A stretch of DNA of 64,000 nucleotides from Pseudomonas sp. Bc-h (GTDB lineage Bacteria; Pseudomonadota; Gammaproteobacteria; Pseudomonadales; Pseudomonadaceae), in the NCBI RefSeq assembly GCF_002080045.1, contig NZ_MUIN01000009.1:2342-66341 (forward strand). The letters are read 5' to 3'. The position numbers were made by a program, and so were the translations under genes. Below are positions 21,835 to 30,738 of this stretch, in pieces. The notes under the pieces were generated by a model. It ran no database searches, had not been told where the DNA came from, and saw only the letters and a list, made by a program, of their open reading frames with translations. Within the stretch, counting starts at the first letter, position 1. The number at the start of each line of letters is the position of its first letter.

Positions 21835-23178
21835 TCAGCCCGAAATCTGCCGCGCCCCCTTGATCGGCTCTTGCGGTAAGACCCGCTCATGGCCCTGACG
21901 CAAACGCAGCGCTGCAATCGCCGCCACCACCAGCACCACGGCAATCACCTTCATGCCGTTCATGGCATTGCCGGTGCTCTGTTCGATCAACCCCATGACC
22001 GACGGCCCGACGAAACCGCCCAGCAGCCCCAGACAGTTGACGAACCCCAACCCGCCAGCCAGCGCCGCGCCTTTGAGGCGTGAGGCCGGGTAGAGAAAGA
22101 TGATCGACTGCACGACGAAGAACATCACCGCCGAAATGCAGAACCCCAGCAGACTGATCACTGGCCCGGCCAGCGACGCGATTGCCAGCCCGATGGCCAT
22201 GGTCAGCAGGCCGGTGACGAGCATCCGCCGGGAACGCTGCGGGGTGTTGGCGAATCGTGGCAAGGCGACCGCCCCCACGGCTGCGGCGATCCACGGCAAC
22301 GAGGTCAGCAGACCGACCTGCACCGTGCTCAGATCGCCGTATTCGCCGATGATCCCCGGCAGAAAGAAGATCACGGTGTAGATGGTGATCTGGTGGCAGA
22401 AGTACACGAAGATCGCCAACAGGATCTGCGGCGTCAGGCACTGCTTCAGTGAGTGCCCGCCGTGCCCGGCCCCCTCCTCGGCTTCGCTCGCCAGTTGCCG
22501 CTCGATCTGTTGCGCTTCGGCAGGGCTCAGCCAGGTCGCCTTGCTCGGACGATCGGGCAGCTTCTTCCACACCACAATGGCGAAGAACACCGCCGGAAGG
22601 CCTTCGAGCATGAACATCCACTGCCAGCCGCGCCAGCCGAACAGGCCATCCAGTTGCATCAGCGCCGCACCCAGTGGCCCACCGATGATGTTTGCCAGGC
22701 ACACACCGAGCAGGAAATACCCGGTGGCGCGAGCGCGTTGTTCGCGGCCGAACCAGTAGGTCAGGTACAGCATTACGCCAGGAAACAGACCGGCTTCGGC
22801 AATGCCCAGCAAGAGACGCAAGACGTAAAACGAGGTCTCGCCCTGGACGAAGGCCATGGCCGCGGAAATCAGGCCCCAGGTAACCATGATCCGGGCAATC
22901 CAGAACCGCGCGCCGACCTTGTGCATGATCAGGTTGCTCGGCACTTCCGACAACGCGTAAGTCAGAAAGAAAAGCCCCGCGCCCAACCCGTACGCGGCGG
23001 CGGAAATCCCCAGATCCACGTCCAGATGATGCTTGGCCAGGGCGATGTTGGTGCGGTCAAGAAAGCTTAAAACGTAAGCCGCGATCAGCAGCGGCATCAG
23101 CTTGACGAACAGCAGCTTGTTCAGCGTGGCGGCGTCGCGGGGTGAAGAAGGCGCTTCGGGCGTTTTTGTAATTGTCAT
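21835..23178 (-). CDS. MFS transporter, anion:cation symporter (ACS) type
   Basis: This 447-residue, 12-helix major facilitator has the ACS-family start (VLSFLDRTNIALAKHHL near residue 40). The LLGIAEAGLFPGVMLYLTYWF motif lies near 122. ACS members import organic anions such as tartrate, phthalate, glucarate or similar sugar acids. It is the last gene of the minus-strand gntR-SDR-BKACE-SMP30-MFS-MFS unit, 63 bp after another MFS gene. It has its own AGAGG site. It probably brings in the acid or lactone consumed by this operon; the substrate cannot be read from sequence. Confidence 0.88.
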   Translation of the reverse strand: MTITKTPEAPSSPRDAATLNKLLFVKLMPLLIAAYVLSFLDRTNIALAKHHLDVDLGISAAAYGLGAGLFFLTYALSEVPSNLIMHKVGARFWIARIMVTWGLISAAMAFVQGETSFYVLRLLLGIAEAGLFPGVMLYLTYWFGREQRARATGYFLLGVCLANIIGGPLGAALMQLDGLFGWRGWQWMFMLEGLPAVFFAIVVWKKLPDRPSKATWLSPAEAQQIERQLASEAEEGAGHGGHSLKQCLTPQILLAIFVYFCHQITIYTVIFFLPGIIGEYGDLSTVQVGLLTSLPWIAAAVGAVALPRFANTPQRSRRMLVTGLLTMAIGLAIASLAGPVISLLGFCISAVMFFVVQSIIFLYPASRLKGAALAGGLGFVNCLGLLGGFVGPSVMGLIEQSTGNAMNGMKVIAVVLVVAAIAALRLRQGHERVLPQEPIKGARQISG

Positions 23179-23241
23179 TGTGCGAACCTCTTTTCAACTC
23201 ATGTAACGGAACGGGCCGGCCAGTTGCGCCGGCGACAGGAT

Positions 23242-24564
23242 TCAGACTTGCGGTTCGATGACCAGCACTTCGGGACGATGGGAAAACAACTGCAGAAAAG
23301 CACCGCCCAACGCGCAACCGGCCATGACGAAGAAGCACACGGTGTAACCCCCAAGGCTCGTCCAGCCGCCACCGGCGCTGATCAAACTGCCCATCAAGAC
23401 CGGTGCGATGCCGCCACCGATGAACATCGCGGTGGTAATGATGCCGTTGGCGGTTGAGGTGGCCGAGGGTTGCGCCGAGTCGGACGCCACCGCGTAGTAG
23501 ATCGGCCACACCGCGTTGGCCACCAGACCGAACAGCAGTTGCACGACGATGATGATCAGCATGGTGTTGGCGAAGTAGAACGCGCCGACACTGGCCGCCA
23601 TCCAGAGGCCGCAGATGATCAGCGTGATTCGACGGCCGATGATGTCCGACAGCGATGGCCAGACCAGTTGGCCGACAATGCCGGTCAGGGTGAATACCAC
23701 GCTCATTCCCGCCGACTCGGCCAGCGACAGGTTGAGAATGTTGTACAGGTAGGCCGGTAGAACGATGTTCACGCCCATGTACACCACCTGCGTCAGCATG
23801 GTGTTGCCAGCCGTGAGTGCGATGTTGCGGTTGGCGATCGCCGCCTTGAAGGTCGCCCAGGCCTGGCCCTTGACGTTCGGCGACGGCGTGCTGTCCGGCG
23901 CGGTCATGCCTTTGGCGGCGATGTCGACGTACAGCTGAGTGATACGTTCGGCCGTCGAGTAGCGCGACCAGAAAATCATCAACGGCAACGCCACGACGAA
24001 GGCAAAGAAGAACACGTAGCGCCAGTTTTCCTCGCCAAAGGTGGCGATCACGAAACTGGCGACAATGCCGCTGAGCATCGCGCCAATCGGGTAGCCGGTG
24101 TGGTGCGCCCCAAGTGCAAAACCACGGCGTTCAACCGGCCACCACTCGGCCGTGTTGCTGACCCCTACCGGTTCGCCCCAGCCCGCGCCGAGGTTCACGC
24201 CCACGCGCAGCGCGATGAAAGACGCCAGGTGGCCGCTGAGAAACTTGAAGCCCGAGAGAAACGAGAGGGCGGTGTATCCCAGAACCAGCGGCACTTGAAA
24301 GCGCGCACGCTTCCAGCCGCCGCCGTACCGGTCGCTCCACACCGAGCCCGGGATATCGAGCACCGCCAGCGCCAGCATGACCACCGTGGCCACGGTGCCC
24401 CATTGATCCGCCGACAGGTCGAAATGCCTGGAAATGGTCGGCCCCAGTCGCAGCACGATTTCGCGGTCGTAAGCGTTGAGAATCCAGATCATCCAGCAGA
24501 CCAGCAACGAAACCCACGAATAGCGATGAATCTTGCCCAACGATGCTTTCTTGTTGTTTTGCAT
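23242..24564 (-). CDS. MFS transporter, second permease of the BKACE operon
   Basis: The 440-residue, 12-helix MFS protein begins MQNNKKASLGKIHRYSWVSLL (ATG 24564, GGAG upstream); a longer frame opening is a poor start. Typical features are the NAYDREIVLRLGPTIS stretch in helix 1 and the SDRYGGGWKR loop between helices 2 and 3. There is also an unusually charged helix-4 region (GWGEPVGVSNTAEWWPVERRG). It is not closely related to the ACS transporter beside it, so the operon may take up two compounds or export one. The substrate is unknown. Confidence 0.87.
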   Translation of the reverse strand: MQNNKKASLGKIHRYSWVSLLVCWMIWILNAYDREIVLRLGPTISRHFDLSADQWGTVATVVMLALAVLDIPGSVWSDRYGGGWKRARFQVPLVLGYTALSFLSGFKFLSGHLASFIALRVGVNLGAGWGEPVGVSNTAEWWPVERRGFALGAHHTGYPIGAMLSGIVASFVIATFGEENWRYVFFFAFVVALPLMIFWSRYSTAERITQLYVDIAAKGMTAPDSTPSPNVKGQAWATFKAAIANRNIALTAGNTMLTQVVYMGVNIVLPAYLYNILNLSLAESAGMSVVFTLTGIVGQLVWPSLSDIIGRRITLIICGLWMAASVGAFYFANTMLIIIVVQLLFGLVANAVWPIYYAVASDSAQPSATSTANGIITTAMFIGGGIAPVLMGSLISAGGGWTSLGGYTVCFFVMAGCALGGAFLQLFSHRPEVLVIEPQV

Positions 24565-24646
24565 GAGGGTCTCCAGGCGTGCCGCACACGCCTTGTCGAG
24601 AGAAGTGTTCCTGTGATCCTTGTGTGTCGATTCGGTCGGTCGTTGC

Positions 24647-25525
24647 TCAGCCGGCAAAGCGCTGTTCAGCGATGCCGCGCACGCCCAGGCCGGTGATGGC
24701 GAACAGTGCGCCGCGTTGCTGGCCGTCTTCCGGGAAGCGCGGCAGCGGCGGTCTGGCCATGGAGGTGGCGAACAGCGTGTCGAGATCCGGGCCACCGAAC
24801 GTCAGGCTGGTAACCTTCTTCACTGGCATCTCGATCATCCGGTCGACCTGGCCGTCCGGGGTGTAGCGCACCAGTTTTCCGGCATACACCAGCGCCTGCC
24901 AGAGGCAGCCTTCGGCGTCCACGGTGCAGCCGTCTGCCGCGCCACCGCCTGAGGTGTCGACCTTGGCGAACGTGCGTCGATTGCGGGTGGCGCCTGTGGA
25001 GTTGTCGTAGTCATAGGCCCAGATTTCGCCCGACCAGGTATCGGCGAAATAGAACGTCTCGCCATTCGGACTCCAGCACGGGCCGTTGGACACGATGATG
25101 CCTTCATCCAGGGTGTGCAGACTCATGTCGGGATCGAGGCGATACAGCTTGGCGCTGGCCTGATCCTCCTGGGTATCCATGGAGCCAAAAATGAAACGGC
25201 CACGGCGGTCGACCTTGCCGTCGTTGAGGCGATTGTGCGGATGGCCGGGTTCCGGATCGACGATCAACTCCAGTTTGCCCGTCGGCAGGTCAAGGCTGTG
25301 CAGGCCGTTCTGCAGGGCAACGATGGCGGCGTCGCCGTTCTTGCGCAGCGCCATGGAGCCAATCTTCTGGCCGACGTCCCAGGCGCGTAGTTCACGCCCG
25401 TCATCGGTGCAGCGCAGAATCCGGCCGTCGAAGCTGTCGATCCAGTAAAGCCGCTGTTGCTCCACGTCCCAGACCGGGCCTTCGCCCAGCGTGGTCTTCA
25501 CATCGACGACGATTTCGATACGCAT
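24647..25525 (-). CDS. SMP-30/gluconolactonase/LRE family sugar lactonase
   Basis: A 292-residue six-bladed beta-propeller. Family landmarks are LGEGPVWD near residue 13 (metal-binding Glu), HNRLNDGKVDRRGRFIFGSMD near 97-117 (Asn-Asp metal ligands) and SNGPCWSPNGETFYFADT near 145. These enzymes hydrolyse sugar lactones to aldonic acids with a divalent metal in the cytoplasm. The site AGGAG precedes the ATG. It lies 94 bp after BKACE and would feed a sugar acid to the SDR and BKACE. Gluconate, arabinonate or galactonate-type lactones are all possible. Confidence 0.92.
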   Translation of the reverse strand: MRIEIVVDVKTTLGEGPVWDVEQQRLYWIDSFDGRILRCTDDGRELRAWDVGQKIGSMALRKNGDAAIVALQNGLHSLDLPTGKLELIVDPEPGHPHNRLNDGKVDRRGRFIFGSMDTQEDQASAKLYRLDPDMSLHTLDEGIIVSNGPCWSPNGETFYFADTWSGEIWAYDYDNSTGATRNRRTFAKVDTSGGGAADGCTVDAEGCLWQALVYAGKLVRYTPDGQVDRMIEMPVKKVTSLTFGGPDLDTLFATSMARPPLPRFPEDGQQRGALFAITGLGVRGIAEQRFAG

Positions 25526-25619
25526 GATTCACTCCTGTCTTGTTCTTATGGGAGGTGATTGCCCTTGTGAGGCGCGCACACCGGGTGCGCGCCTCGTCAC
25601 GTCGAACAGGCTGCGGGCC

Positions 25620-26552
25620 TTAGAAATCCACTTCGTTCTTGCCCTTGAGGGCGAGCATTTCCCGCGCCTCGTCCGGGGTCGCGACACGGCCACCCAGCGC
25701 TTCGATCACGGTGCGAATGCGCTTGACCTGATCGGCGTTGGACGCCGCGAGTTTGCCCGGGCCGTCCCACAGCGAATCTTCAAGACCGACACGCACGTTG
25801 CTGCCCATCGCCAGGCCCATGGTGCCCAGCGGGATCTGATTGCGGCCGGCGCCCAGGATCGACCATTCGTAGGCGTCGCCAAACAGGCGGTCGGCGGTGC
25901 GACGCATGTGGGCCAGGTCTTCCGGGTGGCCGCCGATGCCGCCGCGCAGGCCGAACACCGACTGAATGAAGATCGGCGCCTTGAGCAAGCCGCGTTGCAG
26001 GAAGTGCGCAGCGGTGTAGAGGTGGCCGATGTCGTAGCACTCGATTTCGAAGCGGGTGCGGTTTTCGGCGCAGGCATTGAGAATGTGGGCGATGTCGCGG
26101 AAGGTGTTGCGGAAGATACGGTCGTCGCTTTCTTCCAGGTATGGCCGTTCCCAGTCGTGCTTGAACTCGGTGAAGCGGTCGAGCATTTCGTACAGGCCGA
26201 AGTTCATCGAGCCCATGTTCAGCGAGGCCAGCTCGGGCTTGAGTTGGGCCACCGGTTGCAGGCGTTCTTCGACGCCCATCGTGGGCGCACCGCCGGTGGT
26301 GATGTTGATCACCACATCGCTCTGAGCCTTGATCTGCGGCAGAAACTGCCGGAACAGATCGACGTCCTGGCTCGGGCGACCGTCGAAAGGATCACGGGCG
26401 TGCAAGTGAACGATGGCCGCGCCCGCCTCTGCCGCACCGATGGCAGCCTCGGCGATTTCCTGCGGCGTGATCGGCAGGTGCGGCGACATGGATGGCGTGT
26501 GAATCGCACCGGTGACGGCACAGGTGATGATGACTGGACGTTTTTTCGACAT
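25620..26552 (-). CDS. BKACE (DUF849), 3-keto acid cleavage enzyme
   Basis: The 310-residue TIM-barrel belongs to the beta-keto acid cleavage family, whose founder Kce cleaves 3-keto-5-aminohexanoate. Members condense a beta-keto acid with acetyl-CoA to give acetoacetate and a new CoA ester, using zinc. The VHLHARDP motif near residue 48 supplies zinc-binding His residues; NMGSMNFG near 111 and VGLEDSLW near 255 also fit the family. AAGGGAG lies before the ATG. With an SDR upstream and a lactonase downstream, the likely substrate is a 3-keto sugar acid, which would be an unusual use for the family. Confidence 0.9.
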   Translation of the reverse strand: MSKKRPVIITCAVTGAIHTPSMSPHLPITPQEIAEAAIGAAEAGAAIVHLHARDPFDGRPSQDVDLFRQFLPQIKAQSDVVINITTGGAPTMGVEERLQPVAQLKPELASLNMGSMNFGLYEMLDRFTEFKHDWERPYLEESDDRIFRNTFRDIAHILNACAENRTRFEIECYDIGHLYTAAHFLQRGLLKAPIFIQSVFGLRGGIGGHPEDLAHMRRTADRLFGDAYEWSILGAGRNQIPLGTMGLAMGSNVRVGLEDSLWDGPGKLAASNADQVKRIRTVIEALGGRVATPDEAREMLALKGKNEVDF

Positions 26553-26653
26553 GACTGTTCTCCCTTCTTGTTGTTGGTGAGAGCTGTTCCGGGTATGAAG
26601 CTTTTATGCGTCGCAGCGCGCAGGTTCAGCGACCGGCGTTGCAATGGTCGCGG

Positions 26654-27442
26654 TCAGAGATACTCGACATTGCCGTCGACACTGATGGCCTGCCCGGTGA
26701 CGTTGCGCGCCGCTGGCGAGCAGAGAAACAGCGCCATGGCAGCGACGTCCTCGGCGGTGACCATGCGTTTCAGGGAAATCTTGTTCAGGTACTCCTGACG
26801 CATCTCGGATTCCGGCACATTCAGTTGCTCGGCGCGGGCACGAATCACGCCGTCCATGCGCGGCCCTTCGACGATGCCCGGCAGCAGTGCGTTGACCCGG
26901 ATGTCGCTCTCGCCCAGTTCCGACGCCAGGGACTTCATCAGGCCGACGATGGCCCATTTGGTCGCCGCGTAAGGGGTGCGCCAGGCATAGCCCAAACGCC
27001 CCGCCACCGAGGCGATGTGCAGCAGATGCGCGTTCGGCGACTCTTTGAGCAACGGAACCGCGTGATGCGCGAAGCGGTATTGCGCAGTGAGGTTGATGTC
27101 GATGGTGCGCTGCCAGTCTTCATCGGTGACGGCGTCGATTCCGGCGGTAGGCCCGGCGATGCCAGCGTTGTTGATCAACACATCGAGGCCACCGAACTGT
27201 TCGCGCTGGACCTTGAACACCGCTTCGATCTGCGCGGCATCGCCGACATCGGCGCGGGTCGCCACACTGCCCGGATAACGATCACGAAACGCCGCCAGCG
27301 CCGACTCGCTGACATCACACACATGCACCTTGGCGCCCGCTTCGATGTAGGCCGCGGCCAGCACTTCGCCGATCCCGGCGGCACCGCCGGAAATCAGCAC
27401 CCGCAGGCCGCTGTAGGGAATCAACCGATTGAGAACGCTCAT
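26654..27442 (-). CDS. Short-chain dehydrogenase/reductase, NAD-dependent
   Basis: A 262-residue classical SDR. It has the cofactor motif GGAAGIGE near residue 19, an acidic residue at the end of strand 2 (HVCDVSES) favouring NAD, NNAG near 90, and catalytic Ser with YAATK near 157. The end ISVDGNVEYL is typical of family members acting on hydroxy acids or sugars. It overlaps the gntR stop by 4 bp (ATGA), with GGAG inside gntR. In this operon it would oxidise a hydroxy acid to the beta-keto acid cut by BKACE. Confidence 0.92.
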   Translation of the reverse strand: MSVLNRLIPYSGLRVLISGGAAGIGEVLAAAYIEAGAKVHVCDVSESALAAFRDRYPGSVATRADVGDAAQIEAVFKVQREQFGGLDVLINNAGIAGPTAGIDAVTDEDWQRTIDINLTAQYRFAHHAVPLLKESPNAHLLHIASVAGRLGYAWRTPYAATKWAIVGLMKSLASELGESDIRVNALLPGIVEGPRMDGVIRARAEQLNVPESEMRQEYLNKISLKRMVTAEDVAAMALFLCSPAARNVTGQAISVDGNVEYL

Positions 27443-28161
27443 GCTTTTTTCACTCCTGAGGCAGACGACCGCGCACGGTCGTTATTGACGAGCAGGCGCG
27501 CCAGCGAATCGGCGGCCTGCATGATGTCGTCGGTGACCGCAGCCCGTGCCCCGGCACCATCGCGGGCGGCCAGCGCCTCGACGATGCGGTCGTGGGCTTC
27601 CATCGAGCGCTGCAAGTGCGCCTTGTCCGGCGCGACCAGGGCGAAACATGGCCCCATGTGCAGCCAGAAGTTCTCCACGGCGGCGATGGTCAACTCGGCC
27701 TGGGCCACGGCGTAGATGCGTCGGTGAAAGGCAAAGTTGGTCCACAGATAGCGCGACACGTCGACCTTGTCGGCGGCTTGCTGCATCTGCCGGCAGAGTT
27801 CGCTGATGTCCGCCAGATCGGCATCGGTGAGCAGCGCCACTGCCCTTTCGGCCAGCAGGCCCTCAAGGGCGACGCGGGCATCACGAATTTCGCGCAGACG
27901 TTCAGGCGTCATGATGCGAACGCGCAGCCGCGCGGTTTCAGTCACTTCGAAGGCGTTTTCTGCGCTCAGGCGATGCAGCGCTTCGCGGACCGGCATGGGG
28001 CTTGAGCCCAGCGCGTCGGCGAGGCCGCGGATAGTGAGTTTCTGACCGGGTTGAAAACGCCCGCTCATCAACGCTTCGCGGATCTGCCGGTAAACCTGGT
28101 CCTGCAACGTGTCGCGGGATACCTGGCGCATGGACGGCAAAGGAATGGGGCGATCTGTCAT
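27439..28161 (-). CDS. GntR/FadR-type transcription regulator of the BKACE operon
   Basis: The 240-residue protein has an N-terminal winged helix-turn-helix (residues 10-75, with PVREALHRL in the recognition region). A C-terminal all-helical FCD ligand domain carries the Asp and His positions typical of metal-binding FCD regulators (RDARVALEG, FHRRIYAVA). These proteins usually repress catabolic operons until an organic acid binds. The start at 28161 is preferred because the longer frame runs into the promoter. It is the first gene of the operon, so it probably controls itself; see the operator at 28201-28210. Confidence 0.92.
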   Translation of the reverse strand: MTDRPIPLPSMRQVSRDTLQDQVYRQIREALMSGRFQPGQKLTIRGLADALGSSPMPVREALHRLSAENAFEVTETARLRVRIMTPERLREIRDARVALEGLLAERAVALLTDADLADISELCRQMQQAADKVDVSRYLWTNFAFHRRIYAVAQAELTIAAVENFWLHMGPCFALVAPDKAHLQRSMEAHDRIVEALAARDGAGARAAVTDDIMQAADSLARLLVNNDRARSSASGVKKA

Positions 28162-28196
28162 GGGAGAGAAGCCTGTGTTGTCGTTCTTGTGGCTGA

Positions 28197-28225
28197 AATA
28201 TGTGATCACAAATCAAATAAGTCAA
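28197..28225 (-). promoter_or_regulatory. Sigma-70 promoter with palindromic operator for the gntR operon
   Basis: On the minus strand, TTGACT (28225-28220, 5/6 to consensus) is separated by exactly 17 bp from CATATT (28202-28197, 4/6). The -10 lies 35 bp upstream of the gntR ATG. The perfect 10-bp palindrome TGTGATCACA (28201-28210) lies at the end of the spacer and touches the -10. GntR/FadR proteins bind short palindromes in such positions, so autorepression is likely. A CRP/Vfr site would need a longer spacing between half sites. Confidence 0.65.
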
Positions 28226-28352
28226 ATAGTTTCAGCAGACGACTGTGCGACGGCGGCGCAGATTGTTTGAACCCCCACGCGCGCCAGATGCCGAATTTCA
28301 TGGGCAACGCACGCATCTCGCGACAGCGTTGAAGGATTGGAGAGGCCCGTTC

Positions 28353-29384
28353 ATGCAAGACGACGCACAAGGGATCGAATCAGTTCTGGCTGATTTAGCG
28401 CACCGACCCAACCCGCCAAGGACCGACGAAAGGTTGCGTGAGGCGATGCGCCTGTGCGTCGAACGGGGGCTGGACCGCCTGCCACTGCCCGGCAGCGGCC
28501 AGACCTTGGCGCGCTGGCAGCAACTGGCAGCGGTGGCAGGGCTCGATCTGGCGCTTCTCAAACTTTACGAAGGCCATACCGATGCGCAGGCCATCCTTGA
28601 AGAACTGGGTTGCCAACCCTTCACCGAACCTGGGATCTGGGGTGTATGGGCGGCCGAACCGCCCACGGCACGGGTGGTTGTCAGTGGTCGCAAAGGCGAT
28701 CAAGTCCGCCTCGATGGCCTCAAGGCCTGGTGCTCCGGCGCGCAACAGATCGACTACGCGCTGATCACCGCCTGGACCGAACAGGACCAGCCGCAGTTGA
28801 TTGCCGTGCGTCTGGATCAACCCGGAATCGGCATTGATGCTCAAGGCTGGCAAGCAGTGGGCATGGCCACCACTGCCAGTGTCGATGTGCATTTCGACCA
28901 AGCGGTCGGACATTGCGTGGGTGACCACGGCGCTTACCTGTCGCGGCCCGGATTCTGGCATGGCGGCGCGGGCATCGCGGCATCCTGGTACGGCGCGGCG
29001 GTTGCACTGGCGCGGGTCCTCCATCAACAACGCCAGAAAGGCCGACCCGACCCTCATGCCGACGCCCATCTGGGTGCTGTGGACGCCGCGCTGTATGGTG
29101 CCGCTGCGGCACTGCGCGCCTGCGCGGCGTGGATCGATCAACATCCGCAGGACGACGCTCGGCTGCCGGTGCAACGGGTGCGCGCTCAGGTGGAAATGGC
29201 CGTCGAACAGGTCTGTCGGCATGTGGGCCGCGCCTTGGGCGCCACGCCATTTTGTCGTGATCCGCACTTCGCTCGCCTTGCCGTGGATCTGCCGGTGTTC
29301 ATCCGCCAAAGCCATGCGGAGCGGGACCTGGAACAGTTCGGCCAGTTGCTCGCCAGCCATTCAACGCAGGAGTGGGCACTATGA
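28353..29384 (+). CDS. Acyl-CoA dehydrogenase-like protein, first gene of the PIG-L/methyltransferase trio
   Basis: The 343-residue protein (ATG 28353 with GGATTGGAGAGG upstream) has the flavin-dependent acyl-CoA dehydrogenase outline. The middle beta domain has VVVSGRKGDQVRLDGLKAWCSGAQQIDY near 115-142, and a helical C-terminal half follows. It is shorter than catabolic members (about 380), and I could not place a catalytic Glu. Its neighbours are a deacetylase and a methyltransferase with 4-bp overlaps at both junctions, so it probably acts in a biosynthetic pathway rather than in fatty acid breakdown. The substrate is unknown. Confidence 0.8.
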   Translation: MQDDAQGIESVLADLAHRPNPPRTDERLREAMRLCVERGLDRLPLPGSGQTLARWQQLAAVAGLDLALLKLYEGHTDAQAILEELGCQPFTEPGIWGVWAAEPPTARVVVSGRKGDQVRLDGLKAWCSGAQQIDYALITAWTEQDQPQLIAVRLDQPGIGIDAQGWQAVGMATTASVDVHFDQAVGHCVGDHGAYLSRPGFWHGGAGIAASWYGAAVALARVLHQQRQKGRPDPHADAHLGAVDAALYGAAAALRACAAWIDQHPQDDARLPVQRVRAQVEMAVEQVCRHVGRALGATPFCRDPHFARLAVDLPVFIRQSHAERDLEQFGQLLASHSTQEWAL

Positions 29385-30142
29385 ATGCGCAGCGACCTTT
29401 CGGTGTCAGCGGCACGCCCTTGAGTGAATGGCAGAACAGCACTGCCCTGCGCGGGGCGCTGTCGATCTCCCTTGAGGAACTGGTGCCGTTGGGGGCCAGA
29501 CTGGTGGTTCTTGCTCCGCATCCGGACGATGAAATCCTCGCTTGCGGCGGGCTGTTGGCGGGAATGTTCCCGAGACAGGAAGACGTGCAGTTGATCTCGG
29601 TAACCGATGGCGAAGGCAGTCATCCCGGATCGACACAATGGCCGCAGTCGCGCTTGCGGGCTGCGCGCCAACAGGAAAGCCAGTGCGCCATGGCCAGCCT
29701 GGGGTTCGACATCGACCGGGTGGCTTGGCAGCGTCTGGGAATTGCCGACGGGCATGTGGCTGAGCAGGCGGAATCGCTCATCGCGCTGCTCAGTGAAGAC
29801 CTGCGTTCCACCGACGTGCTGCTCACCACCTGGCGCCACGACGGCCATTGTGACCATGAAGCGGTGGGCCATTGCGCAGCGCAGGCTGCGGCCAATTCCG
29901 GAGCGACACTGGTGGAGGTACCGATCTGGGCCTGGCACTGGGCCGAACCCAACGACCCGCGGATTCCATGGGGCCAGGCGCGCAAGCTGTTGCTCACTGA
30001 TGAACAGCAGATGCGTAAGCGCCGCGCCATTCATGCTCATTTCAGCCAGTTGCAACCTGACAGCAGCACCGGCGCTGCGCCTGTGCTGGACCCCATCACG
30101 CTGGAGCGCCTGCTGCAGCCCTTCGAACTGGTGTTTCTGTGA
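29381..30142 (+). CDS. PIG-L/LmbE family deacetylase
   Basis: The 253-residue protein is a zinc-dependent N-deacetylase of the PIG-L family, with the zinc motif HPDDE at residues 47-51 and a later HDGHCDH near 152 supplying the third ligand. Members remove acetyl groups from GlcNAc-linked compounds, as in GPI anchors, mycothiol and bacillithiol synthesis. The ATG at 29381 overlaps the upstream stop (ATGA), and its own stop overlaps the next gene's GTG, so all three are made together. No signal peptide is present. A GlcNAc-type glycoside substrate is an inference. Confidence 0.92.
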   Translation: MNAQRPFGVSGTPLSEWQNSTALRGALSISLEELVPLGARLVVLAPHPDDEILACGGLLAGMFPRQEDVQLISVTDGEGSHPGSTQWPQSRLRAARQQESQCAMASLGFDIDRVAWQRLGIADGHVAEQAESLIALLSEDLRSTDVLLTTWRHDGHCDHEAVGHCAAQAAANSGATLVEVPIWAWHWAEPNDPRIPWGQARKLLLTDEQQMRKRRAIHAHFSQLQPDSSTGAAPVLDPITLERLLQPFELVFL

Positions 30143-30738
30143 GCCTGCCTGCCGATTATTTCGATGAACTGTTTGCCGACAGCGATGACCCTTGGGCCTT
30201 TCGCACACGCTGGTATGAACAGCGCAAGCGCGACCTGACCCTCGCAGCCCTGCCCCGTCAACGTTATGCCCGCGTGTTCGAACCGGGCTGCGCCAACGGC
30301 GAACTGAGCCTGCGCCTGGCGCAGCGGTGCGACGCATTGCTGTGCATGGACATGAGCGCCAGAGCCGTCGAACTGGCACGCGGCAGGCTGAGCCAATACC
30401 CCCGAGCAGAGGTCATCGAGGGTCGCTTGCCGCAAGACTGGCCGGAGGAGAAATTCGATCTGATCGTGATCAGCGAGTGGGCCTACTATCTGGAGCCTGC
30501 GTTGTTCATTGAAGTGATCGAACGGATTGCCTCCAGCCTGACGCCGGAGGGTGCGGTACTGGCCTGCCACTGGCTGCACCCTATCGAAGGCTGCCCGATG
30601 CTGGGCCGAGAGGCACATGCGCTGCTCGATGCACACCTTTCGATGCGACGCACGGTAAGGCATGAGGAAACCGATTTTCTATTGGAGATGTGGAGCAACA
30701 AGCCGGGCGGGATCGACCTGGATGAACAGGCTGATTGA
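30139..30738 (+). CDS. Class I SAM-dependent methyltransferase, NodS-like
   Basis: A 199-residue Rossmann-fold methyltransferase. Motif I is VFEPGCANGELS near residues 46-57, an acidic end to strand 2 is MDMSAR near 70, and FDLIVISEWAYYL near 108 is motif IV/post. The overall order resembles NodS, an N-methyltransferase acting on chitooligosaccharides after deacetylation. Such a role would fit the deacetylase upstream. It starts with GTG at 30139, overlapping the PIG-L stop by 4 bp (GTGA). It is the last gene of the trio. Confidence 0.9.
   Translation: MSLPADYFDELFADSDDPWAFRTRWYEQRKRDLTLAALPRQRYARVFEPGCANGELSLRLAQRCDALLCMDMSARAVELARGRLSQYPRAEVIEGRLPQDWPEEKFDLIVISEWAYYLEPALFIEVIERIASSLTPEGAVLACHWLHPIEGCPMLGREAHALLDAHLSMRRTVRHEETDFLLEMWSNKPGGIDLDEQAD

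Follow-up and report, generated by a model that had tools for sequence, protein, structure and literature searches.

Can a beta-keto acid cleavage enzyme (BKACE) serve in the breakdown of a sugar acid and, if so, of which one? The question is raised by six adjacent genes in a 64,000-nucleotide stretch of the genome of Pseudomonas sp. Bc-h (hereafter the window; contig C9 of a 7.04-Mb genome, G000), which encode, in the order of transcription, a GntR-type regulator, a short-chain dehydrogenase/reductase (SDR), a BKACE, a lactonase of the SMP-30/gluconolactonase family and two transporters of the major facilitator superfamily (MFS), here called MFS A and MFS B. An earlier reading of the window, the original prediction, saw in them a candidate sugar-acid pathway that would be new. 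Our comparisons indicate that the pathway is already known and not new: from the correspondence with a characterized locus of another species we infer that the six genes are very probably the Pseudomonas operon, known since 2019, for the oxidation of deoxyribonate, itself an oxidation product of the sugar of DNA. What appeared to be a novel BKACE pathway thus turns out to have been described, and the strain gains a phenotype that can be tested, namely growth on deoxyribonate.

Correspondence with the deoxyribonate cluster of Pseudomonas simiae

The deoxyribonate cluster of P. simiae WCS417 was described by Price et al. (2019, PMC6365646) as comprising PS417_07240 (GntR), PS417_07245 (SDR), PS417_07250 (BKACE), PS417_07255 (lactonase) and PS417_07260/07265 (MFS), and the accessible text of that report links it to the catabolism of deoxyribose and deoxyribonate through mutant fitness and, in part, biochemistry. 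The same six families stand in the same order in the window, and likewise in P. simiae CCUG 50988, whose proteins show identities to those of the window of 88% for GntR, 90% for the SDR, 90% for the BKACE, 86% for the lactonase, 89% for MFS A and 82% for MFS B. Because the same six genes recur in the same order at 82–90% identity, with an operator at a nearly equal distance from the regulator, we regard the identity of the operon as very probable. No difference from the P. simiae cluster was seen within the six genes, whereas the flanks differ. Clusters of Paraburkholderia bryophila and Burkholderia phytofirmans that act on deoxyribonate share the SDR and the BKACE, 50–60% identical to those of P. 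simiae by the published figures, but are described, in the accessible text, as being without a close homolog of the P. simiae lactonase (PMC6365646). Among the papers listed by literature searches, which hardly extended to the sister clusters discussed below, Price et al. 2019 alone has this cluster as a subject of title or abstract.

The core of the cluster is conserved well beyond these two species. We assembled a set of 43 loci, comprising 30 Pseudomonas loci picked for a BKACE at least 89% identical to that of the window, the window's own locus, those of P. simiae CCUG 50988 and Solimonas marina, and 10 more distant loci picked for a BKACE of 57–76% identity. The order GntR-SDR-BKACE is kept in 33 of the 43, the 10 distant-BKACE loci being without it. 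In a separate set, the best 80 of 516 loci, a GntR and an SDR gene, each of at least 70% identity, lie directly upstream of the BKACE gene in 25. The GntR-SDR-BKACE set is not a chance grouping.

The predicted pathway and the nature of its substrate

Read in this way, the operon and its accessory genes would support the following route: 1) the MFS carriers would import 2-deoxy-D-ribonate and/or its lactone; 2) the SMP-30 lactonase would open the lactone; 3) the SDR would use NAD to oxidize C3, yielding 2-deoxy-3-keto-D-ribonate; 4) the BKACE would react this product with acetyl-CoA, such that C1 and C2 leave within acetoacetate and D-glyceryl-CoA remains; 5) a glycerate kinase, whose gene lies outside the operon, would feed glycerate into glycolysis; and 6) the GntR/FCD protein would govern the operon from a GTGATCAC operator.

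The chemistry of the BKACE constrains the substrate. Enzymes of this family shift C1 and C2 of a keto acid onto acetyl-CoA as acetoacetate, which requires an unsubstituted C2. Acetoacetate is released only if C2 bears no hydroxyl, so the substrate should be a 2-deoxy acid such as 2-deoxyribonate rather than an ordinary aldonate; by the same reasoning, a 3-keto aldonate with its 2-hydroxyl would give 2-hydroxyacetoacetate, not acetoacetate. The original prediction had the BKACE cleave just such a 3-keto aldonate, and although the lactonase and MFS families are usual in the use of sugar acids, the chemistry and the orthology to a cluster of known role leave this substrate class highly improbable. 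In other respects its route, in which a lactonase, an SDR forming a 3-keto acid and a BKACE acting with acetyl-CoA are accompanied by two MFS transporters and a GntR protein, equals the proposal of Price et al. 2019; its view that a sugar-acid role would be new for a BKACE was anticipated by the same report, in which such a role has been in print since 2019 (PMC6365646).

Genes for the adjoining steps were found outside the operon. A three-gene set on contig C2 matches the P. simiae deoxyribose dehydrogenase at 89% (small subunit), 86% (large subunit) and 83% (cytochrome c) identity, and the P. simiae large subunit used for this comparison carries the RRRFLA signal named for that subunit in the accessible text of the original report (PMC6365646). 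According to the same text, this periplasmic molybdenum enzyme with its cytochrome c is required on deoxyribose only. The single Gly_kinase match of the genome lies on contig C9 and is 68% identical to the sole glycerate kinase of P. simiae; it is adjoined by a gene 58% identical to its P. simiae counterpart, which we call SdaR-like following the paper and its position.

Several points weigh against the assignment to deoxyribonate. In the accessible text of Price et al., the purified P. simiae SDR oxidized deoxyribonate in vitro to a ketodeoxyribonate whose oxidized carbon was not placed, C3 being the authors' inference; cleavage to glyceryl-CoA by the BKACE is likewise inferred there, and direct evidence is said to be lacking (PMC6365646). 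The hydrolase for glyceryl-CoA is entered as unknown in GapMind, as far as the accessible part of its description goes (PMC9007349). The P. simiae locus compared here is that of CCUG 50988 and not of WCS417, in which the cluster was described. Finally, the BKACE matches the NCBIfam model NF053538, 3,5-dioxohexanoate:acetyl-CoA acetone transferase, at 539.5 bits, the equivalog cut-off being 430.

Alternative substrates of the BKACE

Taken at face value, the last of these points would make the operon one for the degradation of 3,5-dioxohexanoate (triacetate), derived for instance from phloroglucinol. In keeping with this, a fairly close relative, the Paracoccus BKACE15 (PDB: 8rio/8rip), is reported in the accessible text to accept several beta-keto acids including 3,5-dioxohexanoate (PMC11961710). 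However, NF053538 fits BKACEs in other surroundings equally: it scores 535.2 bits in a cluster with a GarD-family and a 3-hydroxyacyl-CoA-dehydrogenase-family gene (L174) and 537.3 bits in one with a LigB-type dioxygenase (L172). Because BKACEs from two further types of cluster also pass the model, its name does not establish the substrate; NF053538 spans enzymes from at least three types of cluster and is not to be read as a substrate. Moreover, neither a phloroglucinol reductase nor a cyclohydrolase is among the six genes, where a sugar-type lactonase is found instead, and in P. simiae the orthologous cluster is tied to a phenotype on deoxyribonate. We therefore consider 3,5-dioxohexanoate an extremely improbable substrate.

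Membership of the BKACE family would also be compatible with the breakdown of lysine or carnitine, and the original prediction held that an active site of either type, together with a response of the operon to those substrates, would refute a sugar-acid role. The lysine-type model NF052387 scores 253 bits on the operon BKACE, below its cut-off of 382. In the lysine-type enzyme Glu14 contacts the 5-amino group, according to the accessible text of a paper on phloroglucinol degradation (PMC10470551); the residue aligned with it here, by a two-step alignment, is Ile17. Two BKACEs from other clusters share Ile at this position, so Ile17 argues against the lysine type without singling out deoxyribonate. 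As to carnitine, a Pfam scan of the six genes revealed no L-carnitine dehydrogenase; the genome encodes its carnitine-type BKACE on contig C4, as a paralog sharing 36% identity with the operon BKACE. With Ile17 in place of Glu14, and with the carnitine-type BKACE encoded apart and next to an L-carnitine dehydrogenase, the operon belongs to neither type, and we assign a role of either kind a negligible probability. The paralog itself (G000:C4:167805-168665; L110:6794-8772) has a neighbor scoring 663.4 bits with the model for L-carnitine dehydrogenase, whose cut-off is 414, and the paralog probably acts in carnitine breakdown.

Gene organization and the operator

All six open reading frames lie on the minus strand, are collinear, and have an ATG start and a stop codon (Table 1); in the order of transcription, the gaps between them are -4, 101, 94, 82 and 63 nucleotides. 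The Pfam matches of all six exceed the curated cut-offs. The cluster lies where it was originally placed, at positions 21835-28225, but the starts of two genes had to be mended, to the ATG at 28161 for GntR and to that at 24564 for MFS A, and the end at 28225 takes in the operator.

Table 1. Features of the putative deoxyribonate operon (positions in the window) and their counterparts in P. simiae WCS417
Feature	Positions	Strand	Match or context	Counterpart
GntR/FCD-family transcription regulator, 240 aa	27439..28161	-	Pfam GntR 58.6, FCD 87.3 bits	PS417_07240
SDR dehydrogenase, 262 aa	26654..27442	-	Pfam adh_short_C2 185.1 bits	PS417_07245 (deoxyribonate dehydrogenase)
BKACE, 310 aa	25620..26552	-	PF05853 375 bits	PS417_07250
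SMP-30/gluconolactonase-family lactonase, 292 aa	24647..25525	-	Pfam SGL 272.6 bits	PS417_07255
MFS transporter A, 440 aa	23242..24564	-	MFS_1	first of PS417_07260/07265
MFS transporter B, 447 aa	21835..23178	-	MFS_1	second of PS417_07260/07265
GTGATCAC operator palindrome (candidate)	28202..28209	-	-48 to -41 of GntR start; inside ATTTGTGATCACATAT 28198-28213	

The BKACE match covers the full profile (1-274 of 274), and relatives of the protein in the PDB include 3e49 and 8rio/8rip. Three of its residues, His49, His51 and Glu258, are invariant in six aligned BKACEs, and we take them to be the zinc ligands (His-x-His plus Glu). The two transporters score 147.6 and 149.8 bits against MFS_1, and the nearest NCBIfam subfamily of MFS B is the D-galactonate transporter, with a score below the cut-off.

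The candidate operator recurs at a comparable position elsewhere. The accessible text of the P. simiae report places GTGATCAC at -47 to -40 of PS417_07240 (PMC6365646), and in P. simiae CCUG 50988 we found it at -47 to -40 of the regulator start. It lies within 120 nucleotides upstream of the regulator in all 33 loci that keep the GntR-SDR-BKACE order, the distance being rough for Solimonas, where the start of the regulator is uncertain. These loci were aligned on the 8 bases of GTGATCAC, so those bases agree by construction; four further bases on either side are invariant in 33 of 33 and extend the element to ATTTGTGATCACATAT. In the whole genome the operon site is the sole match to ATTTGTGATCACATAT at up to 2 mismatches, and at up to 3 there are 9 matches, against 8 for a reversed control pattern. 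The shorter GTGATCAC occurs four times in the window, with 1.08 expected by chance; as this count is not rare in itself, the case for the operator rests on position and conservation. On the strand of the operon, a promoter scan yielded a single promoter-like site, at 28225-28197 and overlapping the operator, to which we give no weight because 1.4 such sites are expected by chance.

The regulator had been called a repressor in the original prediction, which was an assumption. The accessible text on P. simiae lists the GntR ortholog among the genes needed on deoxyribose and likens it to the activator AkgR (PMC6365646). Since insertions in the P. simiae gene lose fitness on deoxyribose, the analogy suggests an activator, unless insertions in this first gene of the operon are polar.

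Linked presence and absence of the lactonase and MFS A

Among 298 genomes of the genus, 31, including that of Bc-h, have a BKACE at least 89% identical to that of the window, the next best being 76%. With thresholds of at least 83% for the lactonase, 84% for MFS A and 80% for MFS B, these 31 genomes divide as follows: the lactonase is present in 24, with next best matches of at most 41%; MFS A is present in the same 24, in one of them as two pieces, such that both genes are missing from the same 7; and MFS B is present in 25 (partial in G133) and missing from 6, each of them with both the lactonase and MFS A. No genome of the 31 lacks both carriers. Fisher tests that ignore kinship give p 3.8e-7 for the lactonase with MFS A and 0.29 for the lactonase with MFS B.

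We mapped these states onto a tree of GntR, SDR and BKACE from 33 loci, in which the absence of MFS B from Solimonas was judged by its locus only. The joint state of the lactonase and MFS A requires a minimum of 6 changes, no fewer than 4 of them forced by well-supported branches, and that of MFS B a minimum of 4. The closest relative of the window in the tree (L142; 97% over GntR, SDR and BKACE) is without the lactonase and MFS A. Independent pairs on the tree are concordant in 4 of 4 cases (p 0.125), a value that cannot reach significance since there are only 4 such pairs. The lactonase and MFS A come and go together, and MFS B varies separately. This is a modest addition, but it offers a concrete handle on the two-transporter question of Price et al. 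2019.

One possible, though rather doubtful, explanation is a separable lactone module, in which MFS A would carry the lactone and the lactonase open it, while MFS B would carry the free acid. Were this true, it would explain the need of P. simiae for two carriers, which Price et al. 2019 left as a question. Several observations speak against it, besides the small number of independent pairs on the tree. Both carriers are reported, in the accessible text, to be important on deoxyribonate as well as on deoxyribose (PMC6365646). The large subunit of deoxyribose dehydrogenase (at least 83% identity) is present in 16 of the 24 genomes with the two genes and in 2 of the 7 without (Fisher p 0.099, ignoring kinship). 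MFS A is interrupted by a stop or split in 3 of the 24 (G193, G180 and G213), and this accessory part of the operon seems to be decaying in places; MFS B has a partial match in 1 of its 25 genomes (G133). We had also considered that the lactonase and MFS A might be tied to the dehydrogenase as the expected source of the lactone; this was not borne out, 8 of the 24 genomes having the pair without the enzyme. In G253 the dehydrogenase large subunit was found only as fragments (78–80%), one of them with a stop.

In a search through the class, MFS A was found at an E-value of 1e-60 or better in 1 of 369 genomes, namely that of Bc-h itself. At most 4 candidates were scored per genome, and close homologs are reported in Klebsiella michiganensis in the accessible text of the P. 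simiae report (PMC6365646), so this count is no evidence of absence.

Flanking genes and related BKACE clusters

Divergently from the operon, at 28245-30738, lie genes for a weak acyl-CoA dehydrogenase-like protein (below the Pfam cut-off), a PIG-L deacetylase and a methyltransferase. Homologs of the first two also adjoin the operon in L142; none were found at the remaining 41 loci of the 43-locus set, that of P. simiae among them.

An undescribed sugar-acid BKACE pathway may exist, not in the window but in a sister cluster (L173-L176) from other Pseudomonas, which was sampled from 4 out of 5 genomes whose BKACE is 71–72% identical to that of the window. Its SDR (75%), BKACE (71–72%) and MFS B (61–62%) resemble those of the window, and GTGATCAC sites, another shared feature, lie near several of its genes. 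In contrast, its GntR regulator is only 38–39% identical to the window's, no SMP-30 lactonase was found at these loci, and two genes are added, for a GarD-family dehydratase (PF20629 339 bits; TIGR03248 below cut-off) and for a 3-hydroxyacyl-CoA-dehydrogenase-family protein. L173-L175 also carry an MFS A-like gene and an alpha/beta hydrolase. A further BKACE, 76% identical to that of the window (L172:8290-10364), likely belongs to an aromatic pathway, because it adjoins a LigB-type ring-opening dioxygenase and an aminomethyltransferase-family protein.

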